A stretch of DNA of 64,000 nt from Dermatophilaceae bacterium Sec6.4. Its GTDB lineage: Bacteria > Actinomycetota > Actinomycetes > Actinomycetales > Dermatophilaceae. A model generated the notes under the pieces. It searched no databases, was not told the origin of the DNA, and saw only the letters and a list, made by a program, of their open reading frames with translations. Positions 47,649 through 59,076 of this stretch are shown here, piece after piece. Location of the stretch: assembly GCA_039636865.1 (NCBI GenBank), contig CP144172.1:1054001-1118000 (forward strand). The letters run 5' to 3'. A program made the position numbers and the translations under genes. Every line of letters starts with the position of its first letter. Position 1 is the first letter of the stretch.

Positions 47649-48026
47649 ATGGCGAAGCTCAGCACTGACGAGCTCCTTGACGCGTTCAAGGAAATGACCC
47701 TCATCGAGCTCTCCGAGTTCGTTTCACAGTTCGAAGAGACCTTCAACGTCACCGCAGCCGCTCCGGTTGCAGCTGCCGCTGCAGGCGCTGCCGCCCCTGA
47801 GGCAGAGGCCGAGCAGGACGAGTTCGACGTCATCCTGACCGGTGCCGGCGAAAAGAAGATCCAGGTCATCAAGGAGGTCCGCTCGTTGACTTCTTTGGGT
47901 CTGAAGGAAGCCAAGGACCTCGTTGACAGCGCCCCCAAGGCGATTCTGGAGAAGGTCGACAAGGCTGCGGCCGAGAAGGCCAAGGAGCAGCTCGAAGGAG
48001 CCGGCGCAAGCGTCGAGCTCAAGTGA
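47649..48026 (+). CDS. rplL: 50S ribosomal protein L7/L12
   Basis: The 125-residue protein has the N-terminal dimerisation domain ([21 protein letters not shown]), an Ala/Pro hinge, and the C-terminal factor-binding domain ([30 protein letters not shown]). It is co-transcribed with rplJ and preceded by AAAGGA. Confidence 0.97.
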
Positions 48027-48208: not shown

Positions 48209-49834
48209 TTACTGGCTGGCGCGGCTGTGTTCGCTGATGTGCAGGACCGTCGGTCGGTCGGCGCCCCAGGCCGTGCTGATCTCGGCTGCCAGGTCCTCCG
48301 GGCGTTGCACTGTGATGCCGTGGCAACCCATTGCGCGCGCGATGGCGGCGAAGTCGATACCACCCAGCCGCACCGAGTGGACAGTGTCGCCACGGTCATC
48401 CATCTCGTTGCGGATTTCTCCATATCCGCCGTTGTCCACGATGACGATCGGCAGCGCCAACCCCAGGGCGGCAGCCGTCGCGAGTTCGGGCAGGGTGAAC
48501 ATCGCGCCGCCGTCGCCGATCAGGGCCAGTACCCGCTGGGTACGGCCGCTCAGTGATGCGCCGATCGCGGCCGGTAGCCCGTAGCCGAGTGTTCCCACGC
48601 CGGTCGGGTAGAGGAATCCACCGGGCCGGCGTACCCGCAGTCCGCTGAGCGCGCCGTAGTAGCAGACCATCGTGCTGTCCCCGGCAAGCACCATGTCCTG
48701 GTCCACGACAGAAGCCAGCGCGGCCACGATGTCGACCCACGGTGCACCTTCGGTCCGGGCGTCGCCCGCCAGGGCCTCGCGGGCCGCTCGGGCCCGGTCA
48801 TCCTCCCGCGGCGCGCCCGCGTCATGGTCGCCGATGTCCACCAGCAGCTGCTCCAGCACCGTGTCAGCGGCACCGACCAGGCGTACCCGTGGATCGGCGT
48901 TGGTGACCACGGACATCGCGTCGATGTCGATGCGCACCAGTCGGTCGTCCAGGTCCAGCGGACCGTTCCACAGGTCGGACGGGGCGAGTTCGGTCCCGAT
49001 CGCGAGGATGACATCGCTGTCGGCGAGCAGCTGGGCCACTGACGGGTGATGCAGGCCCGCGCCGACGCTGAGCGGGTGTTCCTCATCGAAGACACCTTTG
49101 CCATTGGCGGTGCTGAGCACGGGCGCTGCCAGCCGCTCGGCAATCCGCAGCACCTCGGGTGCAGCCCCGCGGGCTCCGCCGCCGACAATCACAGTCGGCC
49201 GTCGGGCGGAGCGGAGCAGGTCCGTCGCAGTAGCCACAGCTGCGGTGTCGGCGCTCGCGACCGGTCGCATGACGGGAGCGAGCATGCGGACCGGCCCAGA
49301 CTGCTCGAAGAGGTCTATGGGGATTTCTATGTGCACCGGGCGCGGCCGGCCCGTCTGCATCGCACTGAACGCGTAGGCGACCGCCGAGGGAATCTCCTGG
49401 ACGCTGGTGACGCGGTGGCTGTAGGCGACTACCGCATCCAGCGCGGCGTGCTGATCTTTCACCTCGTGCAGGTATCCGTTGCCCCGACCCGGGTGGGTGA
49501 GCGGCATACCGGGGGAGATGAACAGCACCGGCACCGAGTCCGACCATGCCTGAGCGGCCGCGGCCACGGCATTGAGTATCGCGGGACCGGTCGTGGTGAG
49601 AACGACGCCGGGACGGCCGGTGACCCGGGCGTAGCCGTCGGCCGCGTAGCCCGCACCCTGCTCGTGTCGGGTCAGGACGGACCGAATGGGGGAGTCGGCC
49701 AGTGCGGCGTACGCGGCGAGATTATGCGTGCCGGGAATGCCGAAGACGGTGTCCACACCGTGTTGCTCCAGTGCGCGGATCAGCGCGGCACCTCCCGTCA
49801 TCTCGATCGGCGTCGCATTCGAGGTGATATTCAT
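48209..49834 (-). CDS. TPP-dependent 2-oxoacid decarboxylase-like enzyme (AruI/acetolactate-synthase family)
   Basis: The protein has 541 residues. The TPP-activating Glu is in TRHEQGAGYAADGYARVTG, and the TPP/Mg motif begins GDGGAMF and ends in DNGGYGEIR. The segments VFGIPGTHNLAAY, GRGNGYLHEVKDQ and RPRPVHIEIPIDLF resemble 5-guanidino-2-oxopentanoate decarboxylase (AruI) more than biosynthetic acetolactate synthase. No small regulatory subunit is nearby. It lies 46 bp downstream of the acyl-CoA dehydrogenase and is the last gene of a four-gene operon. Predicted role: decarboxylation of a 2-oxo acid to an aldehyde; the substrate is inferred only. Confidence 0.82.
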   Translation of the reverse strand: MNITSNATPIEMTGGAALIRALEQHGVDTVFGIPGTHNLAAYAALADSPIRSVLTRHEQGAGYAADGYARVTGRPGVVLTTTGPAILNAVAAAAQAWSDSVPVLFISPGMPLTHPGRGNGYLHEVKDQHAALDAVVAYSHRVTSVQEIPSAVAYAFSAMQTGRPRPVHIEIPIDLFEQSGPVRMLAPVMRPVASADTAAVATATDLLRSARRPTVIVGGGARGAAPEVLRIAERLAAPVLSTANGKGVFDEEHPLSVGAGLHHPSVAQLLADSDVILAIGTELAPSDLWNGPLDLDDRLVRIDIDAMSVVTNADPRVRLVGAADTVLEQLLVDIGDHDAGAPREDDRARAAREALAGDARTEGAPWVDIVAALASVVDQDMVLAGDSTMVCYYGALSGLRVRRPGGFLYPTGVGTLGYGLPAAIGASLSGRTQRVLALIGDGGAMFTLPELATAAALGLALPIVIVDNGGYGEIRNEMDDRGDTVHSVRLGGIDFAAIARAMGCHGITVQRPEDLAAEISTAWGADRPTVLHISEHSRASQ

Positions 49835-49880
49835 GGGGTCCTTCGAGGTGGTGTCAGATGCCGGTCGGGTGCAGGAGTCT

Positions 49881-51071
49881 TCAGCCGAGATTGCGGGAGA
49901 TCACCAGGCGCATGATGTCGGAGGTGCCTTCCTCGATCTCCTCGAGTTTGACGTCCCGCATCCACTGCTCGACGGGGAACTCCCGCGAATAGCCCCACCC
50001 GCCGAGGGTCTGCACGGCGGCATGAGTCACGAACATGGCGGTTTCGGACGCGGTCAGCTTCGCCATCGCAGCGAGACCAGGTGCGGACACACCGGCGTCC
50101 AGGGTGCGAGCAGCGTGATGCACCAGCAGCCGGGCGGCCTCGATGCGGGTCGCCATATCGGCGAGCCGGAACGCGACGGCCTGATGTTCGATGATCGGCT
50201 TGCCGAACTGCTCCCGCGTCTTCGCGTAATCGAGCGCGAACTCGTACGCCGCCCGCGCCGCACCGAGTGCGGCAGCGCCCAGGACCACCCGTGAGACGTC
50301 GAAGGTGCCCATCAGCCCGTAGAAGCCCTGACCTTCCTCGCCGAGCCGATCGGCATCAGGGACGAAGACATCGTCCAGGAACACCTCGCGGCAGACGATG
50401 GCGCGCTGACCCATCTTGCGCATCGGCTCGCCCCAGCTCAGGCCCTCGGCGTTTCCGTCGACCACGAAAGCAGTCACCCCACCCGAGCGTTTCGTGCGGT
50501 CCGTCTTGGCGAAGACGACGTAGAGCTTGGCGGCACCGGCGTTGGAGATCCAGGCCTTCTGCCCGTTGAGGCGGTAGCCACCCTCGACCCGGGTCGCAGT
50601 GGTGATGATCGATGCCGCATCCGACCCAGAGCCGGGCTCGGTGGTCGCCAGGGCGGTCATCGGTGCGTTCGGTCCGGTCACCATGCTCAGCCAGCGCTTC
50701 TTCTGCTCGGCAGTACCGGCCAGCATGATGGGGTCGGAGAAGAACCCGTTGGAACATACGAGGTTGCCGATGCCGGGGTCGCCCCAGCACAGCTCCTCCT
50801 GGACCAGGCACTGGGTGAACACGTCGGTGAACCCGCCGCCGCCGTACTCACTCGGGATCATGAAATCGGCAATTCCACACCGGGCGGCTTCGGCAAAGAT
50901 GTCGACGGGTGTCACCACGTCCGCTTCGTCGACCTCCCTGCCGCGCGGTCGGATGATGCGCCGCGCGAAGTCGCGAGCCAACCCGATGAGCTCGAGCTGA
51001 TCCTCGCTGAGCGGCCATGGGGTGGGCATGGTCGTGGGGGTGGCGGTCTTGGGGGTGAGGGTCGTGGTCAT
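49881..51071 (-). CDS. Acyl-CoA dehydrogenase
   Basis: The 396-residue flavoprotein is full length. FAD/substrate-loop motifs are ALATTEPGSGSDAA and KAWISNAG; the C-terminal VQTLGGWGYSREFPVEQWMRD and the EEIEEGTSDIMRLV segment (catalytic-base region) are typical of short/medium-chain ACADs. It oxidises an acyl-CoA to the enoyl-CoA, passing electrons to ETF. Its start overlaps the acyl-CoA synthetase stop by 4 bp. Confidence 0.93.
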   Translation of the reverse strand: MTTTLTPKTATPTTMPTPWPLSEDQLELIGLARDFARRIIRPRGREVDEADVVTPVDIFAEAARCGIADFMIPSEYGGGGFTDVFTQCLVQEELCWGDPGIGNLVCSNGFFSDPIMLAGTAEQKKRWLSMVTGPNAPMTALATTEPGSGSDAASIITTATRVEGGYRLNGQKAWISNAGAAKLYVVFAKTDRTKRSGGVTAFVVDGNAEGLSWGEPMRKMGQRAIVCREVFLDDVFVPDADRLGEEGQGFYGLMGTFDVSRVVLGAAALGAARAAYEFALDYAKTREQFGKPIIEHQAVAFRLADMATRIEAARLLVHHAARTLDAGVSAPGLAAMAKLTASETAMFVTHAAVQTLGGWGYSREFPVEQWMRDVKLEEIEEGTSDIMRLVISRNLG

Positions 51072-53236
51072 CGCGGTGAATCCTCCATAGCGTGCTCAGG
51101 TGTGGTCATCAGGGGTGGGGTGGCCGACGGTTGCGGGGGGTCCGGCAGGTGCGGGTGGTCGTTCGCAACGACGGTGTGCAGGGTCCATGGGGCGGCAGGC
51201 ACCAGGAGTGCATCGACGGCGACCGCTCCCTGTGGTCCGACTCGCACAGGGTTGAGTTCGATCTCCGCAATGTCGACGCGGGCGCACACCAGTCGGGACA
51301 GCGCGGCTGCCACGGCTGCTAGGGCCCCGATGTCACAGGCCGGTCGGCCACGCCAACCGTGCAGCAGCGGGGCGCACCGCAGCCTGTTGATCATCGCGAG
51401 GGCACCCGGTTCGTCGATGGGTGCGCACTCGATGGCGATGTCGCGCCAGACCTCGGCATCGGTGCCGCCCATACCGAGCACGATCACGGGTCCCAGGGAC
51501 GGATCGCGCCGTGCGCCGACGATGATCTCCAGGCAGTGCTCGCGAGTGTCCTGTTCTTCCACGACGTACTCGCCCTCGCCGAGTCGATCGCTCATCAGGT
51601 CGTAGGCCGCGACGAGCTGGGCCTCATCGAGCAGTCCGAGAATCACGCCGTCGGCCTCGGTCTTGTGCTCGATCCACCCGGCTTTCAGGACGTACGGCGG
51701 GTGCAGTGTCCGTGCTGCATCTCGGATCTCGCTGCGGTCCCGCGCGGCCCGGGCGTCGGGCATGGTTATGCCGGCGGCGGTCAGGAGCTGTTGGGCCGCG
51801 AGGTAGCCCGGTGAGGTGGGGGTTTCGTCGTTCGAGGATGAGGTCGGTGAAGGGGCAACCGGTTCGGCGTGCAGGACCGAAAGCCCGCGGATCATCCGGA
51901 CGGCCTTCTCGATGCTGGCGACGACGGGTATCCCGCTGTTCCACAGGTGACGAGCAACGGGTCCGTCCGGTGCCATCGAGTGCACCACGATGGCCTTACC
52001 GGTCTCTTGGGCAATCTCGCCGATGCGTTGGGCAACCTGCAGTTCGCGGTCCGCCAGGGGTGGGGTGTCCTCGCTGTACCTGCCGAAGTATCCGGTGAGT
52101 ACGGCAGCGTCGATCCCGGGGTCAGCGAGCATCGATTCGATGACTGTGGCGTATGCCGTGAGGTCCGCCTCGCCGCTACCGGCCAGGTCGACGGGGTTCT
52201 CCCGAGCGGCGCCTTCCGGCACCACCTGCGCGAGTCCCTGCTCGACGTTGTCGTCGAACGGAGCCACGATGAGGCCGGCATCTGTCGCGACGTCCGCTGC
52301 GATGCCGCACTGACCTCCGCTGTCGCCGGCGATACCTACCCGCAGGCCACTGGTGCCGCGCACGGTGAGGAAACCTTCCGCCACATCTACGAGCTCGGCG
52401 GGGGTCCGCACGCGTAGGACGCCTGCGGCTCGACAGGCCGCGTCGATCAGATCTGTGGCTGCGGTGAGTGAGCCGGTGTGCGATCGGGCCAGCCGGGCGC
52501 TCGCGGCACTGGAACCCACGGTCAGCAGCAGGGTCGGTTTGCCCGTGGCGCGCAACAGTCGCAGGGTCTCGAAAAGTTGCACACCGCTGGCGAAACCCTC
52601 GAGATAGAGGGCGATGACCTCGGTACTTCGGTGCTTCCGCAGTTGGTCGAGTATCTCGGCCGCGTCGATGTCGCTCTGGTTGCCGACGGATACGAAGCGG
52701 GATACGCCGATTCCCCTGCGGGCAAACCTGATCGCCAGCTCGGAGCCGAGCTGGCCGCTCTGCGTGACAATCGCGACGGGACCGGGGCGGAAGTGACCCC
52801 ACGCCAACTGCAACTCTGTCTCCGCGTCGTACACGCCGAGGCTGTTCGCGCCGAGCAGTCGTGCTCCGCCGTCCCTGATGCGCCGGGCCAGGTCGGCTTC
52901 CTGCGCGACGTGGGCGGTGACGCCGAGGAATCCGCGGACCCCGAGGGCCAGTCCCTCCGCGACGACGGCCGATACGGCCGCGGCCGGGACGGCCAGCGCC
53001 ACCAGCTCCGGCGGATGATCCAGCTCGGACAAGGAGCGGGCGCTGGGTTGCCCGAGGACGGTGTCGTGGGTGTGATTGACAAGGTCCACCGAACGTCGAT
53101 GCCGGCCCTCGAGCGCGCCACGGGCCAGCCAAAAACCCCACTTGGCCGGGTTGTCCGATGCGCCGACGACCGCCACTGAGGCCGGGTCATTGAAGACGCG
53201 CAGGGTGTCATGCGCGTTCGTGGGTCCAGCGGTCAC
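51068..53236 (-). CDS. NDP-forming acyl-CoA synthetase (acetate-CoA ligase, ADP-forming, fused subunits)
   Basis: The protein has 722 residues from GTG 53236; longer in-frame starts add a non-conserved stretch. The N-terminal CoA-binding domain has ASVAVVGASDNPAKWG, the ligase domain has IVTQSGQLGSELA and the phospho-His region RSHTGSLT, and the C-terminal part is an ATP-grasp domain (YVLKAGWIEHKTEADGV, GMGGTDAEVWRD). This is the fused alpha-beta form that makes acyl-CoA from acid, CoA and NTP, or the reverse with ATP gain. Its operon neighbours are an SDR upstream and an ACAD downstream. Confidence 0.9.
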   Translation of the reverse strand: MTAGPTNAHDTLRVFNDPASVAVVGASDNPAKWGFWLARGALEGRHRRSVDLVNHTHDTVLGQPSARSLSELDHPPELVALAVPAAAVSAVVAEGLALGVRGFLGVTAHVAQEADLARRIRDGGARLLGANSLGVYDAETELQLAWGHFRPGPVAIVTQSGQLGSELAIRFARRGIGVSRFVSVGNQSDIDAAEILDQLRKHRSTEVIALYLEGFASGVQLFETLRLLRATGKPTLLLTVGSSAASARLARSHTGSLTAATDLIDAACRAAGVLRVRTPAELVDVAEGFLTVRGTSGLRVGIAGDSGGQCGIAADVATDAGLIVAPFDDNVEQGLAQVVPEGAARENPVDLAGSGEADLTAYATVIESMLADPGIDAAVLTGYFGRYSEDTPPLADRELQVAQRIGEIAQETGKAIVVHSMAPDGPVARHLWNSGIPVVASIEKAVRMIRGLSVLHAEPVAPSPTSSSNDETPTSPGYLAAQQLLTAAGITMPDARAARDRSEIRDAARTLHPPYVLKAGWIEHKTEADGVILGLLDEAQLVAAYDLMSDRLGEGEYVVEEQDTREHCLEIIVGARRDPSLGPVIVLGMGGTDAEVWRDIAIECAPIDEPGALAMINRLRCAPLLHGWRGRPACDIGALAAVAAALSRLVCARVDIAEIELNPVRVGPQGAVAVDALLVPAAPWTLHTVVANDHPHLPDPPQPSATPPLMTTPEHAMEDSPR

Positions 53237-53301
53237 GGGTGATGCTTCTCCTTTACATTGTTCAAGGGGGAGGCAGAGGGGTAGGCCTGGTGGGCCAGCG
53301 C

Positions 53302-54111
53302 TCAGGAGCGCGCTCGTTCGTCGGTATAGATCGATTTGCCGAGCCACTGTCCACCGTCAACGACCAGAACCTCACCGGTGACATATGAGGCTCGGCCACT
53401 CAGCAGGTAGCACGCCGATTCGGCGATTTCGTCGGGGCTCGCGAAACGGCCTGCAGGAACCCCTGACTGGACGCGGGCCCGTGCTTCGTCGGTGCCCCAG
53501 AGCGCTGCTCCGGCCCCTTCGGTCTCCGTGGGACCGGGTGCAATCGCGTTGACCCGGACCCCGCGCCCTGCCCATTCCACCGCCAGGGTGCGGGTCATCG
53601 CCACGACGCCGCCCTTCGCGGCAGCGCTGTGGACTGTCCCCGGGTGGCCGTGCCAGGCGTAGGTTGCGATGACGTTGAGGATCGATCCTGAGCCGGCCGC
53701 CAACATATGCGGAGCAGCAGCGCGCGCGGCGTAGAAAGAGCCGTTGAGCACGATGTCGATAACGGCCTTCCAACCGTTCGGGCTCAGCTTCTCTGCCGGG
53801 GAGACGAAGTTCCCGGCGGCATTGTTTACGAGCGCGTCTAAACGACCTTCACGTTGCACGACGTCGTCGATTGTTTTCAGGACCGCTGCTGCATCGCGCA
53901 TATCGCAGCAGGCGAAGTCGGCGAGACCACCTGCGGCCGTGATGCGGTCGACGGTTTCGCGCAGCGGGGCCTCGCGGCGACCAAGGACGATGGCCTTGCC
54001 GCCTGCGGCGCTGTATCGTTCGGCGATCGCGCGACCGATCCCGCTACCGCCTCCTGTTACGACGACGACCTGACCGCTGAACTCGCGGGAGATGTCTGGG
54101 ACGGTCACCAT
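53302..54111 (-). CDS. SDR-family oxidoreductase, 2,4-dienoyl-CoA-reductase-like
   Basis: The protein has 269 residues, starting at ATG 54111 with AAGGA upstream. It has TGGGSGIGRAIAERYSAAGG, the LVNNAAGNFVSPAEKLSPNG block that resembles 2,4-dienoyl-CoA reductases, and the VNAIAPGPTETEG loop. The usual YxxxK is replaced by HSAAAKGG, as in dienoyl-CoA reductases that lack the classical Tyr. It is the first gene of the operon, and its start lies 37 bp from a palindromic operator. Confidence 0.85.
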   Translation of the reverse strand: MVTVPDISREFSGQVVVVTGGGSGIGRAIAERYSAAGGKAIVLGRREAPLRETVDRITAAGGLADFACCDMRDAAAVLKTIDDVVQREGRLDALVNNAAGNFVSPAEKLSPNGWKAVIDIVLNGSFYAARAAAPHMLAAGSGSILNVIATYAWHGHPGTVHSAAAKGGVVAMTRTLAVEWAGRGVRVNAIAPGPTETEGAGAALWGTDEARARVQSGVPAGRFASPDEIAESACYLLSGRASYVTGEVLVVDGGQWLGKSIYTDERARS

Positions 54112-54147
54112 GTCAGTCCTTGGGTGTGAGGATCGGCGATTCAGCTA

Positions 54148-54163
54148 CTGAACCATGGTTCAG
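54148..54163. promoter_or_regulatory. Perfect 16-bp palindromic operator before the SDR-ACS-ACAD-TPP operon
   Basis: CTGAACCATGGTTCAG is an exact palindrome located 37 bp upstream of the SDR start and 126 bp upstream of the divergent TetR gene. The same core recurs before the Glu/Leu dehydrogenase gene at 54971-54996. It is the likely TetR-binding site. Confidence 0.75.
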
Positions 54164-54289
54164 CATGACTGGAGGCTCAGGGCGCTGTCAAGACCCCGGA
54201 AGCGGTCATTACCGGGCTGCACATAGGCGAGCATCACCCTGTGCATTTCCGACCGCAGAGCTGGTCGTTGGCTGTATTCGTCACGCCTC

Positions 54290-54922
54290 GTGGCTTACCC
54301 TCCAGAAGTGGTCAGAAAGCGAATGGATGCAGATGTTCGACGTGCGGAGATCTTGCGCGCCACGATGCGTCAGATCGAGGAGCACGGCACCGCACTGTTG
54401 CGGATCGCCGATGTGGCAGCAGACCTGGATGTTTCCGCGGCGCTGATCGTCTATCACTTCCAGACCAAAGAGCAGCTGATCGTCGATACTTTCGCTTCCG
54501 CCGCGCAGCGCGACCTGGACAAGCTCGCGGAGCTCACCTCAGGTAGCGGCACGGCCCGGGAGCGGTTACGGGTCGCACTCAGCTGGTACGCGCCGACCGG
54601 GCGGGCCAATGGCTGGCGCCTGTGGATCGAAGGATGGGCTGAGGGAATGCGTCAGCCGATGCTGCAGAAGGTCGGCAGCGAATTCGATCTCGCCTGGCGC
54701 GCAGCATTGATTGCGATCATCGAGGAGGGGGTCGCTGCCGGTGAGTTCGTGACGGGCGATGCCAGGGGTGCGGCATGGCGGATCACCGCATTACTCGACG
54801 GTTTGGCGGTGCAGGTCATTGTGCACAACGGACTGATCACCCGGACCGAGCTACTGGATTGGACAATGGCGATCGTCACGCACGAGCTGGGGCTGGAGCC
54901 GCAGGCTGCGTTATCCGGCTGA
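54290..54922 (+). CDS. TetR-family regulator (BetI/TetR_C_6-like)
   Basis: The protein has 210 residues from GTG 54290. The helix-turn-helix region is RIADVAADLDVSAALIVYHFQTKEQ, with the degraded first helix typical of BetI-like regulators. The C-terminal domain contains the RLWIEGWAEGMRQPMLQ and ITALLDGLAVQ segments of TetR_C_6. It is divergent from the SDR operon and followed by the dehydrogenase gene, and near-identical palindromes precede both units. I infer that it represses both; the ligand may be an acyl-CoA or 2-oxo acid. Confidence 0.85.
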   Translation: MAYPPEVVRKRMDADVRRAEILRATMRQIEEHGTALLRIADVAADLDVSAALIVYHFQTKEQLIVDTFASAAQRDLDKLAELTSGSGTARERLRVALSWYAPTGRANGWRLWIEGWAEGMRQPMLQKVGSEFDLAWRAALIAIIEEGVAAGEFVTGDARGAAWRITALLDGLAVQVIVHNGLITRTELLDWTMAIVTHELGLEPQAALSG

Positions 54923-54970
54923 GCTGCCAACTGCCCGGCGGACCATCCCTCCCGGTTGACCGACCACCTC

Positions 54971-54996
54971 TTTTACTGCACCATGGTTCAGTAAAA
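54971..54996. promoter_or_regulatory. Near-perfect 26-bp palindromic operator before the dehydrogenase gene
   Basis: The left half TTTTACTG plus the core ACCATGGT plus the right half CAGTAAAA form a 26-bp palindrome with one mismatched pair. It shares ACTG-N-ACCATGGTTCAG with the operator at 54148-54163 and ends 17 bp before the dehydrogenase start. It probably overlaps the promoter. Confidence 0.75.
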
Positions 54997-55013
54997 ACAA
55001 CGGGAGGACCCTC

Positions 55014-56231
55014 ATGTCAGTCGCTGTACCCACCATTTCAGGTGTGAGCACCAGATCGCCCACCATGCAGGTGATCTGGACCGACCCGGTAACGGGTCGA
55101 CAAGGTTTTGTCGTCATTGACAAGCTGGTGCGAGGGGTATCGAGCGGTGGCCTCCGAATGCGCGCCGGCTGCACGCTGAACGAAGTGGCCGGGTTAGCGG
55201 CGGGAATGACCCGCAAGGAAGCGCTGCACTACCTGCCCGACAACAAGTACGTGCCGCTGGGCGGCGCCAAGGGCGGCATCGACTGCGACCCCACCGACCC
55301 CGACGCTTTCGGCATGCTGACCCGCTTTCTGGACGGTGTCCGGTCCATCCTCGCGGAGCACTGGACGACGGGAGAGGATCTGGGAGTCCGCCAGGACACC
55401 ATCGATGAAGCAATTCAGGCCGCTGGACTGGTCAACTCGATCCAGGCGATCTACCCGCTGCTGGACGACCCGGACGAAGCCCGCACCCGGCTCTCGGACG
55501 CCTTCGCAGTGATGGTCGACGGTGTCAGCCTGCCGGAGCTGATGGGCGGACTCGGTGTCGCCCAGGCCGCTCTGACCACGCTCGCGGTGCGGGGTGTTGA
55601 TCCTGTCGGAACCCGGGCCGTGATCCAGGGCTTCGGCTCGATGGGCGGGGCGACTGCGCGGTATCTCGCGCGGGCCGGCGTCCGCGTCGTTGCGCTGTCC
55701 GACGTGCACGGCACGGTGGTCAACCCGGAGGGGCTGGACGTCGAACGGCTGTTGCTCTCCCGCGACCCATCGGGCGGGATCGACCGCGCGCAGCTTGCTG
55801 AGGGTGATCAGGATCTTGACGTCGGCGCCTGGATCGATGTGGACTGCGACGTCCTGATCCCTGCCGCCGTCTCGTACTGCATCACCCCGGCGAACCAGGG
55901 CCGGGTGAGCGCGACGTACATCGTCGAGGCTGCGAATATGCCCACCCTGCCCGAGGCAGAGGTCGAACTCCAGGCGCGTGGGGTGGAAGTCATCCCCGAC
56001 TTCGTCGCGAACTCCGCGACCAACGCCTGGTGGTGGTGGACCCTTTTCGGCGATGTCGGCGCCGATGCCGAAGACGCCTCCAACCAGGTACGTAGCTCGA
56101 TGACCCGCCTGGTCACCGCAATGTTGGAGCAGGCCGATGCCGAGCACATCACCCCGCGCGCAGCAGCGCAGCGGGTTGTAGAGGCGAACCTGACGGCGAT
56201 CGACGAGCGCTTCGGCACCTCGGTCGGCTGA
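55014..56231 (+). CDS. Glu/Leu/Phe/Val-type amino-acid dehydrogenase
   Basis: The protein has 405 residues with GGGAGGAC upstream. It is an NAD(P)-dependent oxidative deaminase. The catalytic Lys is in PLGGAKGGIDCDP, the dinucleotide-binding loop is VIQGFGSMGGATARYLA, and PDFVANSATNAWWWWTLFGD closes the domain. An unusual WWWW run lies near the C-terminus. The substrate cannot be fixed: Glu, Leu, Phe or Val are all in the family. It is controlled by the same operator type as the SDR operon, so it may feed a 2-oxo acid to the TPP decarboxylase. Confidence 0.88.
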   Translation: MSVAVPTISGVSTRSPTMQVIWTDPVTGRQGFVVIDKLVRGVSSGGLRMRAGCTLNEVAGLAAGMTRKEALHYLPDNKYVPLGGAKGGIDCDPTDPDAFGMLTRFLDGVRSILAEHWTTGEDLGVRQDTIDEAIQAAGLVNSIQAIYPLLDDPDEARTRLSDAFAVMVDGVSLPELMGGLGVAQAALTTLAVRGVDPVGTRAVIQGFGSMGGATARYLARAGVRVVALSDVHGTVVNPEGLDVERLLLSRDPSGGIDRAQLAEGDQDLDVGAWIDVDCDVLIPAAVSYCITPANQGRVSATYIVEAANMPTLPEAEVELQARGVEVIPDFVANSATNAWWWWTLFGDVGADAEDASNQVRSSMTRLVTAMLEQADAEHITPRAAAQRVVEANLTAIDERFGTSVG

Positions 56232-56246
56232 CCTCATCCCCATGAA

Positions 56247-56294
56247 GCCAGAAGGCGGGTACCACGGGAAGTCCCGTGGTACCCGCCTTCTGGC
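56247..56294. terminator. Perfect 22-bp bidirectional terminator
   Basis: Arms 56247-56268 and 56273-56294 are exact inverted repeats with a 4-nt loop (aagt). It lies between the dehydrogenase (+) and the ABC ATPase (-), both of which end toward it. No T-tract is present. Confidence 0.8.
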
Positions 56295-56309
56295 GTTGGT
56301 CGGAAGTAG

Positions 56310-57053
56310 TTACAACCGACCGGCCTGCACGACTCGGGACAGGAACTGTTGGGTTCGCTCTTCCTGAGGGTTCTCAAAGATCTGCTGAGCGGTGCCGTTC
56401 TCGCAGATTTCGCCCTGGTCCAGGAAGCACACCTGACTGGCGACTTCCCTGGCGAAGCTCATCTCGTGAGTGGCCAACAGCATCGTCAGCCCTTCTTTCG
56501 CGAGCTCGCGGACAATCTCCAGCACATCTCCGACCAGTTCGGGGTCCAGCGCCGCCGTGATCTCGTCCAACAGCATCACGCGCGGCTCCATAGCCAGTGC
56601 GCGCACGATCGCGACCCGCTGCTGCTGACCACCGGAGAGCATGTCGGGGTAGGCCTTCGCCTTCATCCCCATGTTCACCGATTCGAGCAGGGCCATGCCC
56701 TTTTCAATGGCCACCTTTTTCTTGACCCCGCCGAGCATCGTGGGCGCCAGAATCACGTTCTCCAGCACGCTCATGTGCGGGAAGAGGTTGTAACTCTGGA
56801 AGACGATGCCCACGTCTTTGCGTAGCGCATTCAGGTCCACGCCTGTTCCGGTGACAGTGTCGCCCTCGATTCGGATTTCACCACCATTCACCTGTTCCAA
56901 CTGGTTCACGCAGCGCAACAGTGTTGACTTCCCCGAGCCGGAGGCACCGATCAGGCAGACGACCTCGTGGCGCTCGACATTGAGCGTGACCCCTTTGAGG
57001 ACCTGGTTCGAGCCAAAGGACTTCTTGACATTGTCGATCTCCAAAAATGACAT
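56310..57053 (-). CDS. Polar-amino-acid ABC transporter, ATP-binding subunit
   Basis: The protein has 247 residues. Walker A is GASGSGKST, the Q-loop is VFQSYNLFPHMSV, the signature is LSGGQQQR, Walker B is VMLLDEIT, and the H-loop His is in ATHEMSFA. The sequence is the GlnQ/GluA type. It starts 3 nt after the permease stop, third in the operon SBP-permease-ATPase. Confidence 0.94.
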   Translation of the reverse strand: MSFLEIDNVKKSFGSNQVLKGVTLNVERHEVVCLIGASGSGKSTLLRCVNQLEQVNGGEIRIEGDTVTGTGVDLNALRKDVGIVFQSYNLFPHMSVLENVILAPTMLGGVKKKVAIEKGMALLESVNMGMKAKAYPDMLSGGQQQRVAIVRALAMEPRVMLLDEITAALDPELVGDVLEIVRELAKEGLTMLLATHEMSFAREVASQVCFLDQGEICENGTAQQIFENPQEERTQQFLSRVVQAGRL

Positions 57054-57056
57054 CGA

Positions 57057-58151
57057 TCAACCTCCTGCCTTGCGACTGGCGTCGCGATCGATGAGCCAAT
57101 CAACGAACCGCGCCTGCGGAATGGTGATCAGGATGAAGAGGCCCGCGACGAGCATCACCGGTGAGAGATTGGCGAGTTTCGACTGCCAAAGCGTTGCAAT
57201 CAAGAAGGCTTCAGGTACTGCTGCGATCGCCAGCAGTGCAGTGTCCTTCTGCAAGCTGATGAAGTCGTTCAGCAACGGGGGGATGACCCGACGCACAGCC
57301 TGCGGCACCAGCACTTTGCGCAGTGTCTGGACGTAGCTGAGGCCGAGTGAGCGCGCTGCCGCACTCTGACTCGGGTGGATCGAGGACAGACCCGCCCGGT
57401 AGACCTCTGCGACATACGCCGAGTAGGTCAACGTCAGCGCCACGATGCCCAGATAGGTAACGGGCCAACTAGTCATAGCGGGAATGGCCAATGGCAGGCC
57501 GAAGATGATCAGGTAGATCGTGACGATTGCGGGAATGGCCCGGAAGATATCGCAATACATGATTGCGATGAACCTCAGGGGCGCACCCGCTCGACCTGGC
57601 AGCATCCGCATAATCGCGAGAATCAGCCCGAAGATCAGAACGAAGACCTGTGCCACCAACGCTACCCAGATGTTGATCCAGAAACCATGGATAATTTCCG
57701 AGAAGGACATCCGAAAGGCACGCTGCTGAAAGAAGGTAATCGCGACGCTGCCATTATTGGCGAGTGCCAGGAATAGAACTCCAGAAGCGATCAGCGCCGC
57801 TGCTGCATATCCGATACCGATGAACGCTTCCTCGCGCCCACCCGCTGCTGCGCGCCGCGCCGACACAAGCTTCTTATCCCGCAGCAGCGAAGATCGCTGC
57901 GCATTGGCGCCGAATGCTTTGACCGTCGGCAGGAACGGATACAACGCGAGAACAATGAATACGATGGCAAAGATCGTTGATTTGATCCCGCCGTGGTTGA
58001 ACTCACGGAGCTTGTAACTCACGAAAGCCGTGAACGCCAGACCAGCTGCGGACGCTAGGAGCGCGATCACGGCAAGGGGGAGTACGGGCTGTGGCGGGCT
58101 GGGCGTCGGAGGCGACTGGGTGTCTTCCCTGATCAGGTTTGCTGTACTCAT
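57057..58151 (-). CDS. Polar-amino-acid ABC transporter permease
   Basis: The 364-residue protein has a long N-terminal region with two hydrophobic segments (about 28-46 and 60-78) and a cytoplasmic loop, then the HisM-type core of five or more helices. The coupling-helix EAA motif is AARSLGLSYVQTLRKVLVPQAVRRVIPPLLN, and EVYRAGLSSI precedes it. It forms the channel, probably as a homodimer because no second permease gene is present. Confidence 0.92.
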   Translation of the reverse strand: MSTANLIREDTQSPPTPSPPQPVLPLAVIALLASAAGLAFTAFVSYKLREFNHGGIKSTIFAIVFIVLALYPFLPTVKAFGANAQRSSLLRDKKLVSARRAAAGGREEAFIGIGYAAAALIASGVLFLALANNGSVAITFFQQRAFRMSFSEIIHGFWINIWVALVAQVFVLIFGLILAIMRMLPGRAGAPLRFIAIMYCDIFRAIPAIVTIYLIIFGLPLAIPAMTSWPVTYLGIVALTLTYSAYVAEVYRAGLSSIHPSQSAAARSLGLSYVQTLRKVLVPQAVRRVIPPLLNDFISLQKDTALLAIAAVPEAFLIATLWQSKLANLSPVMLVAGLFILITIPQARFVDWLIDRDASRKAGG

Positions 58152-58185
58152 ATCGCAACTTCAGCTGGTCGGGGAACGACGGTGA

Positions 58186-59076
58186 TCATTTAATTGCCCA
58201 CACCGGGACGGTCGACGGGTCGCCACCGAATGCCGGGCCGAGGTAGTCCGTCGTGAGCGTCTTGAGTACGCCATCGGACATCAATGTCTTGATGCCCTTG
58301 TCCAGCTCGGTCTTGTTCTTGGATGCCTTGGGGTAGATCGCGCCGTACTTCTCGCCGGTCTTGAACTGCCCAACGACTTTCAGCGCCGGGACTGCCTTTG
58401 CCTCGGCCAGCACAATGGCGGTGTCCAGGAAGGCGGCGTCGATCTGACCGGAGATGACGGCCTGGTACAGCGTCTGTGAGTTGGGGTAGATCTTGGCGCT
58501 CTTGCACTTCAAGGTGTCCTGGATGAACGGCACAGAGGTGGTGCCGGCGTAGGCGCCGCAGCGCTTGTCCTTGATGTTGGCTTCGGTGACACCGCCGGTC
58601 TTCTTGGCGAGCACGCCGACGTTCGAGTCGTAGTAGGGGGTGGAGAAGTCGACGACCTTCTGGCGCTCCGGCGTGATCGAAATCTCGGCAAGAGCAATGT
58701 CGTAGTTCTGCGTGCTACCCGCAACGAGTTGGGCGAACGCGACATTCTTGACGGTGATGGACTTCAGACCGGCCATATTCGCCAGCTCGGCGCCCATGCA
58801 GTACTCGTAACCATCTTTGATCGATGCGGCGGTGGTTCCGTTCCACCAGCCCTGCGCCGGCAGCGTGGTCTCCACGGTGAGAGTGCCTGCAACGGCGGGA
58901 GTCAGCTTGATGGAGTTGGCCTTGCTGGTGATCTTGCAGTTGCCGAAGTCGGCTTTGCCACCTCCGCCTCCGCTCGCGCCGGAGCTCTTGGTCGAGCCGG
59001 AGCTACTGCCACAGGCTGCGAGCGTGGCCGAGGTTGCCAGCACGCTGACGATGGTGATGGTGCGCTTGAGGGCCAT
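58186..59076 (-). CDS. Amino-acid ABC transporter substrate-binding lipoprotein
   Basis: The protein has 296 residues. The signal peptide ends in the lipobox LAAC (Cys22), followed by a Gly/Ser linker. The SBP_bac_3 domain contains the segments YDIALAEISITPERQKVVDFSTPYY and VISGQIDAAFLDTAIV. It binds the amino acid outside the membrane and passes it to the permease encoded 34 bp downstream. The ligand is not readable; the family covers polar and basic amino acids. Confidence 0.93.
   Translation of the reverse strand: MALKRTITIVSVLATSATLAACGSSSGSTKSSGASGGGGGKADFGNCKITSKANSIKLTPAVAGTLTVETTLPAQGWWNGTTAASIKDGYEYCMGAELANMAGLKSITVKNVAFAQLVAGSTQNYDIALAEISITPERQKVVDFSTPYYDSNVGVLAKKTGGVTEANIKDKRCGAYAGTTSVPFIQDTLKCKSAKIYPNSQTLYQAVISGQIDAAFLDTAIVLAEAKAVPALKVVGQFKTGEKYGAIYPKASKNKTELDKGIKTLMSDGVLKTLTTDYLGPAFGGDPSTVPVWAIK

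Follow-up and report, generated by a model that had tools for sequence, protein, structure and literature searches.

A conserved TetR regulon with two candidate operators, probably serving amino-acid breakdown, in Dermatophilaceae bacterium Sec6.4

Introduction

In the AruH-AruI arginine transaminase pathway of Pseudomonas aeruginosa, a transaminase acts first and decarboxylation by AruI follows. Against this background we describe a gene cluster at 48209-59076 of a 64,000-nt stretch of DNA (hereafter the window) from the 3.79-Mb genome of Dermatophilaceae bacterium Sec6.4 (contig CP144172.1), in which a sequence-only reading had recognised a TetR regulon that could carry an amino acid from uptake to acyl-CoA. 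We found that the TetR gene is accompanied, here and in other genomes, by a conserved predicted operator, and the locus is most likely a new form of known pathways, a regulon for amino-acid breakdown. For the AruI homologue of Sinorhizobium meliloti, a published study gives a sevenfold higher activity on 5-amino-2-oxopentanoate (PMC7268258), and an AruI-like sequence therefore does not settle the substrate of such an enzyme.

Results

The TetR gene and its candidate operators

All nine open reading frames proposed for the cluster were recovered at the positions and in the families given for them, and the cluster is indeed flanked by rplL (47649-48026) and rpoB (59585 onwards). Its features are the following (profile scores in bits).

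48209..49834, minus strand: predicted AruI-like thiamine pyrophosphate (TPP)-dependent 2-oxo-acid decarboxylase; NF005712 494.3 (cut-off 500), TIGR00118 302.3 (cut-off 538.35), GYGEIR in place of RQWQ
49881..51071, minus strand: acyl-CoA dehydrogenase (ACAD); PF00441, PF02770 and PF02771 above cut-off, NCBIfam equivalog cut-offs unreached
51068..53347, minus strand: single-chain NDP-forming acyl-CoA synthetase (ACS); PF13380, PF13607, PF19045 and PF13549 above cut-off
53302..54111, minus strand: short-chain dehydrogenase/reductase (SDR), dienoyl-CoA-reductase-like; NF005811 281.2 (cut-off 318)
54147..54164, no strand: candidate operator 1, ACTGAACCATGGTTCAGC, between the divergent SDR and TetR starts
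54290..54922, plus strand: TetR regulator with BetI-type C-terminal domain; PF00440 38.2 (cut-off 24), PF13977 71.5 (cut-off 27)
54971..54996, no strand: candidate operator 2, a 26-bp palindrome 17 bp ahead of the dehydrogenase start codon
55014..56231, plus strand: ELFV-family amino-acid dehydrogenase, TNAWWWW subtype; PF00208 119.2 and PF02812 43.8, both above cut-off
56310..57053, minus strand: polar amino-acid ATP-binding cassette (ABC) transporter, ATPase; PF00005 above cut-off
57057..58151, minus strand: the same transporter, permease; PF00528, TIGR01726 57.7 (cut-off 42.2)
58186..59076, minus strand: the same transporter, substrate-binding protein; PF00497 60.5 (cut-off 26.4)

Matching palindromes had been reported on either side of the TetR gene, and both are present: a perfect one of 16 bp at 54148-54163, CTGAACCATGGTTCAG, and one of 26 bp with a single mismatched pair at 54971-54996, TTTTACTGCACCATGGTTCAGTAAAA. 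When the genome was scanned with the pattern that the sequence-only reading had put forward, ACTGNACCATGGTTCAG, exact matches were obtained solely at these two sites. Allowing one or two mismatches revealed no further place in the genome, the two one-mismatch rows being the same sites on the reverse strand. At three mismatches there were 19 other rows against 15 for the reversed control pattern, and thus the remaining matches are at chance level.

Comparison of the window with Streptomyces sites in three loci (L037, L044 and L064) yielded a more general operator of 18 bp, ACTGA-N8-TCAGT, which with at most one mismatch occurs in the window only at the two palindromes. We searched for it in 80 loci around the closest relatives of the dehydrogenase (the best 80 of 486 confirmed stretches, searched with the window proteins), to which the three motif-suggesting loci also belong. 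The 350 bp ahead of the dehydrogenase, or ahead of a plus-strand ACAD, TPP or solA gene, contained an exact site in 63 of the 80 loci and a site with at most one mismatch in 71, whereas the control (random points, reversed sequence) gave 0.3 and 0.9 of 80, respectively; the loci are mostly from Streptomyces, and the counts are therefore not independent. Sites are present outside this genus too, in Segeticoccus, Leekyejoonella, Kutzneria and Streptacidiphilus loci. A narrow core, TGAACCATGGTTCA, tried with up to three mismatches, missed most of the relatives, as the outer bases of the arms are conserved and the middle is not.

The set was enlarged to 103 loci (1.96 Mb) by 20 further genome loci and three from plasmid records. 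These contained 99 exact and 56 one-mismatch sites, 139 of the 155 lying at most 350 bp upstream of a searched gene, compared with no exact and 16 one-mismatch sites in a base-shuffled copy; in these counts, overlapping sites offset by 4 bp enter twice, L162 duplicates the stretch of L027, and further added loci may repeat some of the 80. A site lay by a cluster gene in 77 of the 83 loci where a TetR match reached 100 bits, but in only 3 of the 20 others (L065 and the plasmid loci L112 and L113). The loci with TetR and no counted site were L029, L035, L048, L051, L070 and L090, although in L090 an exact site falls 8 bases past the start of the dehydrogenase match. In Streptomyces a site also occurs between TetR and an APC permease; among the sites listed, 10 of the 14 permease-bearing loci have one no more than 350 bp from the permease.

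The regulator carries the TetR_N domain, and a conserved palindromic operator stands ahead of the genes that it would control and is kept along with it. BetI itself is not indicated by the profiles (TIGR03384 58.8, cut-off 201.3; NF001978 58.8, cut-off 118). Phylogenetic footprinting supports the proposed TetR regulon with two operators, and we conclude that this conserved regulon, as predicted from sequence, is real.

A wider regulon in this genome was also sought and rejected: matches to ACTG-N9-TCAGT numbered 9 on the forward and 8 on the reverse strand, and the control had 10 and 9. Three other full ACTGA-N8-TCAGT palindromes exist (C2:362494, 1425349 and 2447362), and nothing in the genes around them, inspected without a family search, pointed to the pathway considered here; we treated them as chance. 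One of them, ACTGATCAATCATTCAGT at G000:C2:1425349 (L170:7349), lies in a gap about 180 bp before a secreted-protein-like gene and is taken as a chance match with less certainty than the others.

Conservation of the module

TetR was found in 78 of the 80 loci, and wherever both flanks extended to 8.5 kb or more it was always there (63 of 63). The four enzymes of the minus strand were less constant: TPP was present in 24 loci, ACS in 22, ACAD in 20 and SDR in 14, and an APC permease in 14; all four enzymes occurred together in 13 loci, three in 7, two in 1 and one in 5. We also examined an even sample of 296 Actinomycetota genomes, taking E≤1e-60 for the dehydrogenase family and E≤1e-120 for the TPP clade. 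The former occurred in 17 genomes and the latter in 5, all among the 17 and with the genes adjacent, as judged from their coordinates, in every case. With our own genome excluded (4 of 4 within 16 of 295), the hypergeometric probability of this is about 6e-6, kinship ignored. Among 117 nearer relatives the TPP clade was present in nine, including this genome, and seven of the other eight were fetched: the dehydrogenase is beside TPP in five (L162-L166), L167 has TPP without the dehydrogenase in the fetched stretch, and L168 is cut by the contig end. TPP, dehydrogenase and ACS are same-strand neighbours in Streptomyces, for example in L044, L064 and L094, of which L064 (S. viridiviolaceus) and L094 (S. 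carpinensis) contain the complete run. The enzyme set envisaged for deamination, decarboxylation, CoA activation and acyl-CoA dehydrogenation recurs jointly in other genomes and has support at the family level.

Many Streptomyces loci (L038-L105) are of a minimal form with TetR, dehydrogenase and operator only, and the flanks of one of these, L105, look unrelated (an ATPase domain of histidine-kinase type, a lactamase fold, a GDSL lipase and an M23 peptidase). That the minimal loci are hidden full clusters was considered and rejected, since no TPP clade is present elsewhere in G023, G193, G161 and G128. In addition, a Segeticoccus locus (L026:3093-7099) has an SDR, a BoxD-type aldehyde dehydrogenase and the benzoyl-CoA epoxidase BoxB after the dehydrogenase. 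Three loci (L114, L115 and L127) have a D-2-hydroxyacid-dehydrogenase-like gene close to the TPP gene, which possibly feeds the same 2-oxo acid.

A search of 72,556 plasmid records gave two matches, both Streptomyces plasmids with the module. There it lies next to SolA-like genes resembling N-methyl-L-tryptophan oxidase (NF008425 287.6, cut-off 257) and beside an Xaa-Pro-dipeptidase-like amidohydrolase (437.6, cut-off 500), neighbours that hint at N-alkylated peptides as the feed. No TetR of the window kind was found on these plasmids, though one-mismatch sites are present. The same regions (L112:13677-23422 and L113:13736-20899) also encode a flavin amine oxidoreductase and, in L113, an oligopeptide-type binding protein.

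The amino-acid dehydrogenase

The dehydrogenase belongs to the ELFV family: it has the two Pfam domains as well as GGAKGG, one of the catalytic lysine motifs, all of which are retained together with GEDLG. In the HMMER alignment the column of the lysine that binds the side-chain carboxylate of glutamate is occupied by serine 44, invariant in 13 of 13 aligned relatives. In addition, the pocket stretch GGVTVSYF of glutamate dehydrogenase is replaced by ATNAWWWW. With both the side-chain lysine and the pocket changed, the protein lacks these two features of glutamate dehydrogenase, and its predicted specificity is probably new.

The TNAWWWW motif was found in 78 of the 80 loci. The 17 family members of the phylum sample divide into nine with TNAWWWW and eight with another motif and a shorter loop, and the TPP clade accompanies only the former (5 of 9 compared with 0 of 8). 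The sister subtype lacking TNAWWWW (the L018-L025 group, and for example L117 and L124) is without this TetR, TPP or operator; its dehydrogenase lies near an amidase and a creatinase-like gene in L117, and between a class-III aminotransferase and ABC genes in L124.

The TPP enzyme

NF005712, the profile of AruI (5-guanidino-2-oxopentanoate decarboxylase), was the best match of the TPP enzyme, and its cut-off was narrowly missed; plasmid orthologues, 59-60% identical, carry an AruI-type name in RefSeq. The refuting possibility considered in the sequence-only reading, an enzyme acting only as acetolactate synthase, is disfavoured, because the genome has its own separate acetohydroxyacid synthase (AHAS; 1020.4, cut-off 881) and because the RQWQ stretch, presumably a feature that weighs for AHAS, reads GYGEIR in the window enzyme, which also falls below the TIGR00118 cut-off. 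RQWQ is present in the AHAS of the genome (L107) and in its paralog L108, and GYGEI in the window enzyme and in eight of the nine compared relatives, L127 having GYAEI. The activating-glutamate stretch HEQG is kept in all ten compared TPP enzymes. The decarboxylation step is supported at the level of the family.

CoA activation, acyl-CoA dehydrogenation and the missing aldehyde dehydrogenase

The ACS, ACAD and SDR are clear at the family level and undefined below it. On the minus strand, SDR, ACS, ACAD and TPP follow one another; the first two junctions are overlaps, of 46 and 4 bases, and the third is a 46-base gap, so that a single operon is possible. The first GTG of ACS accounts for the 46-base overlap with the SDR gene, and the real start may be further downstream. 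ACS contains the CoA-binding, ligase and ATP-grasp domains of the NDP-forming type, and its nearest solved relatives are ADP-forming ligases. None of the named substrate classes was reached (acetate 271.9, cut-off 1200; 3-hydroxypropionate 241.5, cut-off 1300; 4-hydroxybutyrate 228.4, cut-off 1300). For the dienoyl-reductase-like step that had been proposed, an SDR is present, but the label of 2,4-dienoyl-CoA reductase misses its cut-off; the nearest solved sequence, 3imf, is named short chain dehydrogenase.

It had been noted that no aldehyde dehydrogenase is encoded in the window and that this step would be missing or supplied from elsewhere. The first part holds: of 15 Aldedh (PF00171) matches in the genome, 11 of which are nearly complete, none falls inside the window. 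As to the second, an aldehyde dehydrogenase is beside the dehydrogenase-TPP pair in two distant relatives, but none in this genome could be tied to the regulon. In L115 (genome G075, of the same phylum and outside the class), one strand carries polyamine-type ABC genes, ACAD, ACS, SDR, TPP, the dehydrogenase, an aldehyde dehydrogenase, a 2-hydroxyacid dehydrogenase, an EamA transporter and a weakly similar TetR (84 bits). In L119 a betaine-aldehyde-dehydrogenase-like gene (630.3, cut-off 668.6) is divergent from TPP-dehydrogenase. These two enzymes fill the step missing from the window; their best profiles are those of aminobutyraldehyde and betaine-aldehyde dehydrogenases, both below cut-off.

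The closest counterpart of the L119 enzyme in this genome (56%) is encoded at C2:2575115, adjoining what reads by eye as a betaine-type ABC transporter. We considered it as a regulon member and rejected it, as the motif-like site about 490 bp off sits within a neighbouring frame that reads as acetyltransferase-like.

The ABC operon and the rplL-rpoB slot

TetR and the dehydrogenase are both on the plus strand, and the ABC operon comes next on the minus strand. An HEQRo-type permease domain and a family-3 binding protein mark it as a polar amino-acid transporter, and the nearest solved sequence of the binding protein is a glutamine-binding protein. The GC content is 66.8% in the enzyme genes, 59.7% in the ABC genes and 65.5% in the window. 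The link of this operon to the regulon, suggested in the sequence-only reading, has partial support, from the recurrence of matching ABC genes beside the TPP gene in Leekyejoonella (L027) and L168, and none from an operator.

We fetched the stretch before rpoB in 16 of 37 other genomes (L138-L153). In 15 of them rplL lies 0.36 to 9.05 kb ahead of rpoB, and a stretch of 10 kb in L151 showed no rplL; the cargo between the two genes differs among these relatives. The 16 stretches gave no match to the dehydrogenase, TPP, ACS, SDR or TetR at E≤1e-8, and weak matches to the ABC ATPase (27-30%) and ACAD (25%). Two genomes of the same genus have no TPP clade and rplL-rpoB gaps of 1.6 and 2.9 kb, one of which holds, as read by eye, a secreted trypsin-type protease-like gene. 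In Leekyejoonella, of the same family, the cluster is on a different contig from rpoB. The rplL-rpoB interval is therefore a variable slot, and the cluster is either a gain at this place or a loss in the sisters.

Discussion

The explanation that we consider fairly probable is that a BetI-type TetR repressor here controls a substrate-inducible regulon for amino-acid catabolism. Gene families, operators and linkage are computed, and from these we infer repression, the ligand, the order of steps and an aldehyde dehydrogenase from elsewhere. In the absence of substrate, TetR would occupy both 18-bp operators, silencing the dehydrogenase gene and the SDR-ACS-ACAD-TPP operon and probably its own gene, until the amino acid or a product (2-oxo acid or acyl-CoA) binds TetR and transcription is switched on. 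The dehydrogenase would then deaminate the amino acid with NAD(P)+, and decarboxylation of the 2-oxo acid by the TPP enzyme would leave an aldehyde, to be oxidised by an aldehyde dehydrogenase whose gene lies elsewhere. NDP-forming ACS would produce the acyl-CoA, and ACAD, with SDR in some genomes, would open a beta-oxidation-like breakdown. As a guess, held with somewhat less than even confidence within this explanation, the substrate may have a long polar or cationic side chain of the arginine, ornithine or lysine type, N-methylated forms included.

Several observations weigh against the catabolic regulon so described. None of the four enzymes is nearby in 54 of the 80 loci, although in 17 of the 80 one flank is shorter than 8.5 kb and an enzyme may there be absent because of the contig end. 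The whole genomes of the four Streptomyces-type carriers named above hold no TPP-clade gene, only relatives 35-37% identical, so the dehydrogenase can work without the TPP enzyme. SDR was not found in L027, L165 and L166. The window sites each deviate by one base from ACTGA-N8-TCAGT, and no such site with at most one mismatch precedes the ABC operon in the window. No operator was found on the aldehyde dehydrogenases of this genome where we looked, the remaining ones not having been gone through singly. Moreover, the transporter types beside the module vary so widely that no single substrate is indicated.

The loci and genomes without the TPP set are what would be expected if TetR, operator and dehydrogenase were a deamination unit of their own, and TPP, ACAD, ACS and SDR degraded something else under the shared regulator; L167, with TPP and no dehydrogenase in the fetched stretch, would also fit. 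We regard this division into two modules as unlikely, since the TPP clade never occurred without the dehydrogenase family in the 296-genome sample, the genes being adjacent, and since TPP, dehydrogenase and ACS are one-strand neighbours in Streptomyces loci such as L044. Much less probable still is that the palindromes are due to chance or belong to another regulator, with genes that are not co-regulated. It could be said for this that the genome has only two sites, neither a full match to the general operator, and that six of the 83 TetR loci are without a site by a cluster gene, but 71 of the 80 loci show the footprint where the control would give 0.9, and sites track the TetR gene, both of which speak against it.

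The remaining alternatives concern the substrate. A strict arginine (or ornithine) route would be a special case of the catabolic regulon, in which arginine gives 2-ketoarginine, a true AruI gives 4-guanidinobutyraldehyde, and the resulting 4-guanidinobutyrate either receives CoA or is hydrolysed by the single ureohydrolase that the genome encodes. The best profile match of the TPP enzyme (494.3 against 500), the RefSeq name of the plasmid orthologues, the profiles of the aldehyde dehydrogenases found by the pair and the presence of that ureohydrolase-family gene elsewhere in the genome are all consistent with it. We nevertheless consider it improbable, as the TPP protein is below the AruI cut-off, the binding protein most resembles glutamine-binding proteins, the known pathway has no need of ACS and ACAD, and, as the S. 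meliloti study has it, a homologue named by its likeness to AruI prefers 5-amino-2-oxopentanoate sevenfold (PMC7268258). A methionine route would pass through 4-methylthio-2-oxobutanoate, methional, 3-methylthiopropionate and its CoA ester to dehydrogenation, and its order of steps fits. DmdB and DmdC offer a parallel for the CoA-ester and dehydrogenation steps, and 3-methylthiopropionate has the beta hydrogen that ACAD requires. This route appears highly improbable, with no DmdD-like hydratase in the cluster and no pointer to sulfur in the neighbourhoods.

A bolder version, possible but in our view rather doubtful, is that the locus represents an undescribed mobile Actinomycetota pathway. In it an ELFV dehydrogenase of a new substrate class (TNAWWWW) would be combined with an AruI-like decarboxylase, the skeleton would be CoA-activated and desaturated and not left as a free acid, and the TetR/operator pair would be kept across genera. 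The Streptomyces plasmid variants would be fed by N-alkylated (for example N-methyl) amino acids, released from peptides by an Xaa-Pro-type dipeptidase and subjected to SolA-like demethylation. Among the titles and abstract openings of the matches listed in the open-access literature, we found no description of this cluster or operator, which does not imply absence from print.

The labels of glutamate dehydrogenase and acetolactate synthase, given by some sources to relatives of these proteins, are probably wrong. By the present analysis such generic labels, acyl-CoA dehydrogenase included, become one testable regulon with a defined operator and enzyme set, for which the Streptomyces relatives offer test strains.

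Comparison with known systems

The closest described systems are the AruH-AruI pathway and the arginine transamination network of S. meliloti (PMC7268258): there too, deamination to a 2-oxo acid is followed by decarboxylation by an NF005712-type TPP enzyme and oxidation by an aldehyde dehydrogenase. Here, in contrast, a dehydrogenase stands in place of the transaminase, control is by TetR, and the neighbours are a CoA synthetase and ACAD and not a ureohydrolase. With the glutamate, leucine, phenylalanine and tryptophan dehydrogenases the window enzyme shares the ELFV fold family, catalytic lysines and GEDLG, but it differs in the serine at the glutamate lysine column, in the TNAWWWW pocket and in an extra loop of about six residues, and it reaches no NCBIfam cut-off. 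The ACS has the same one-chain domain set as the known NDP-forming (ADP-forming) acyl-CoA synthetases but reaches no equivalog cut-off. Finally, TetR resembles the repressors of its family that act in acyl-CoA or amino-acid catabolism, such as BetI, in its BetI-type C-terminal domain and in a palindromic operator by divergent genes, whereas it scores below the BetI cut-off and is associated with another gene set and another operator.

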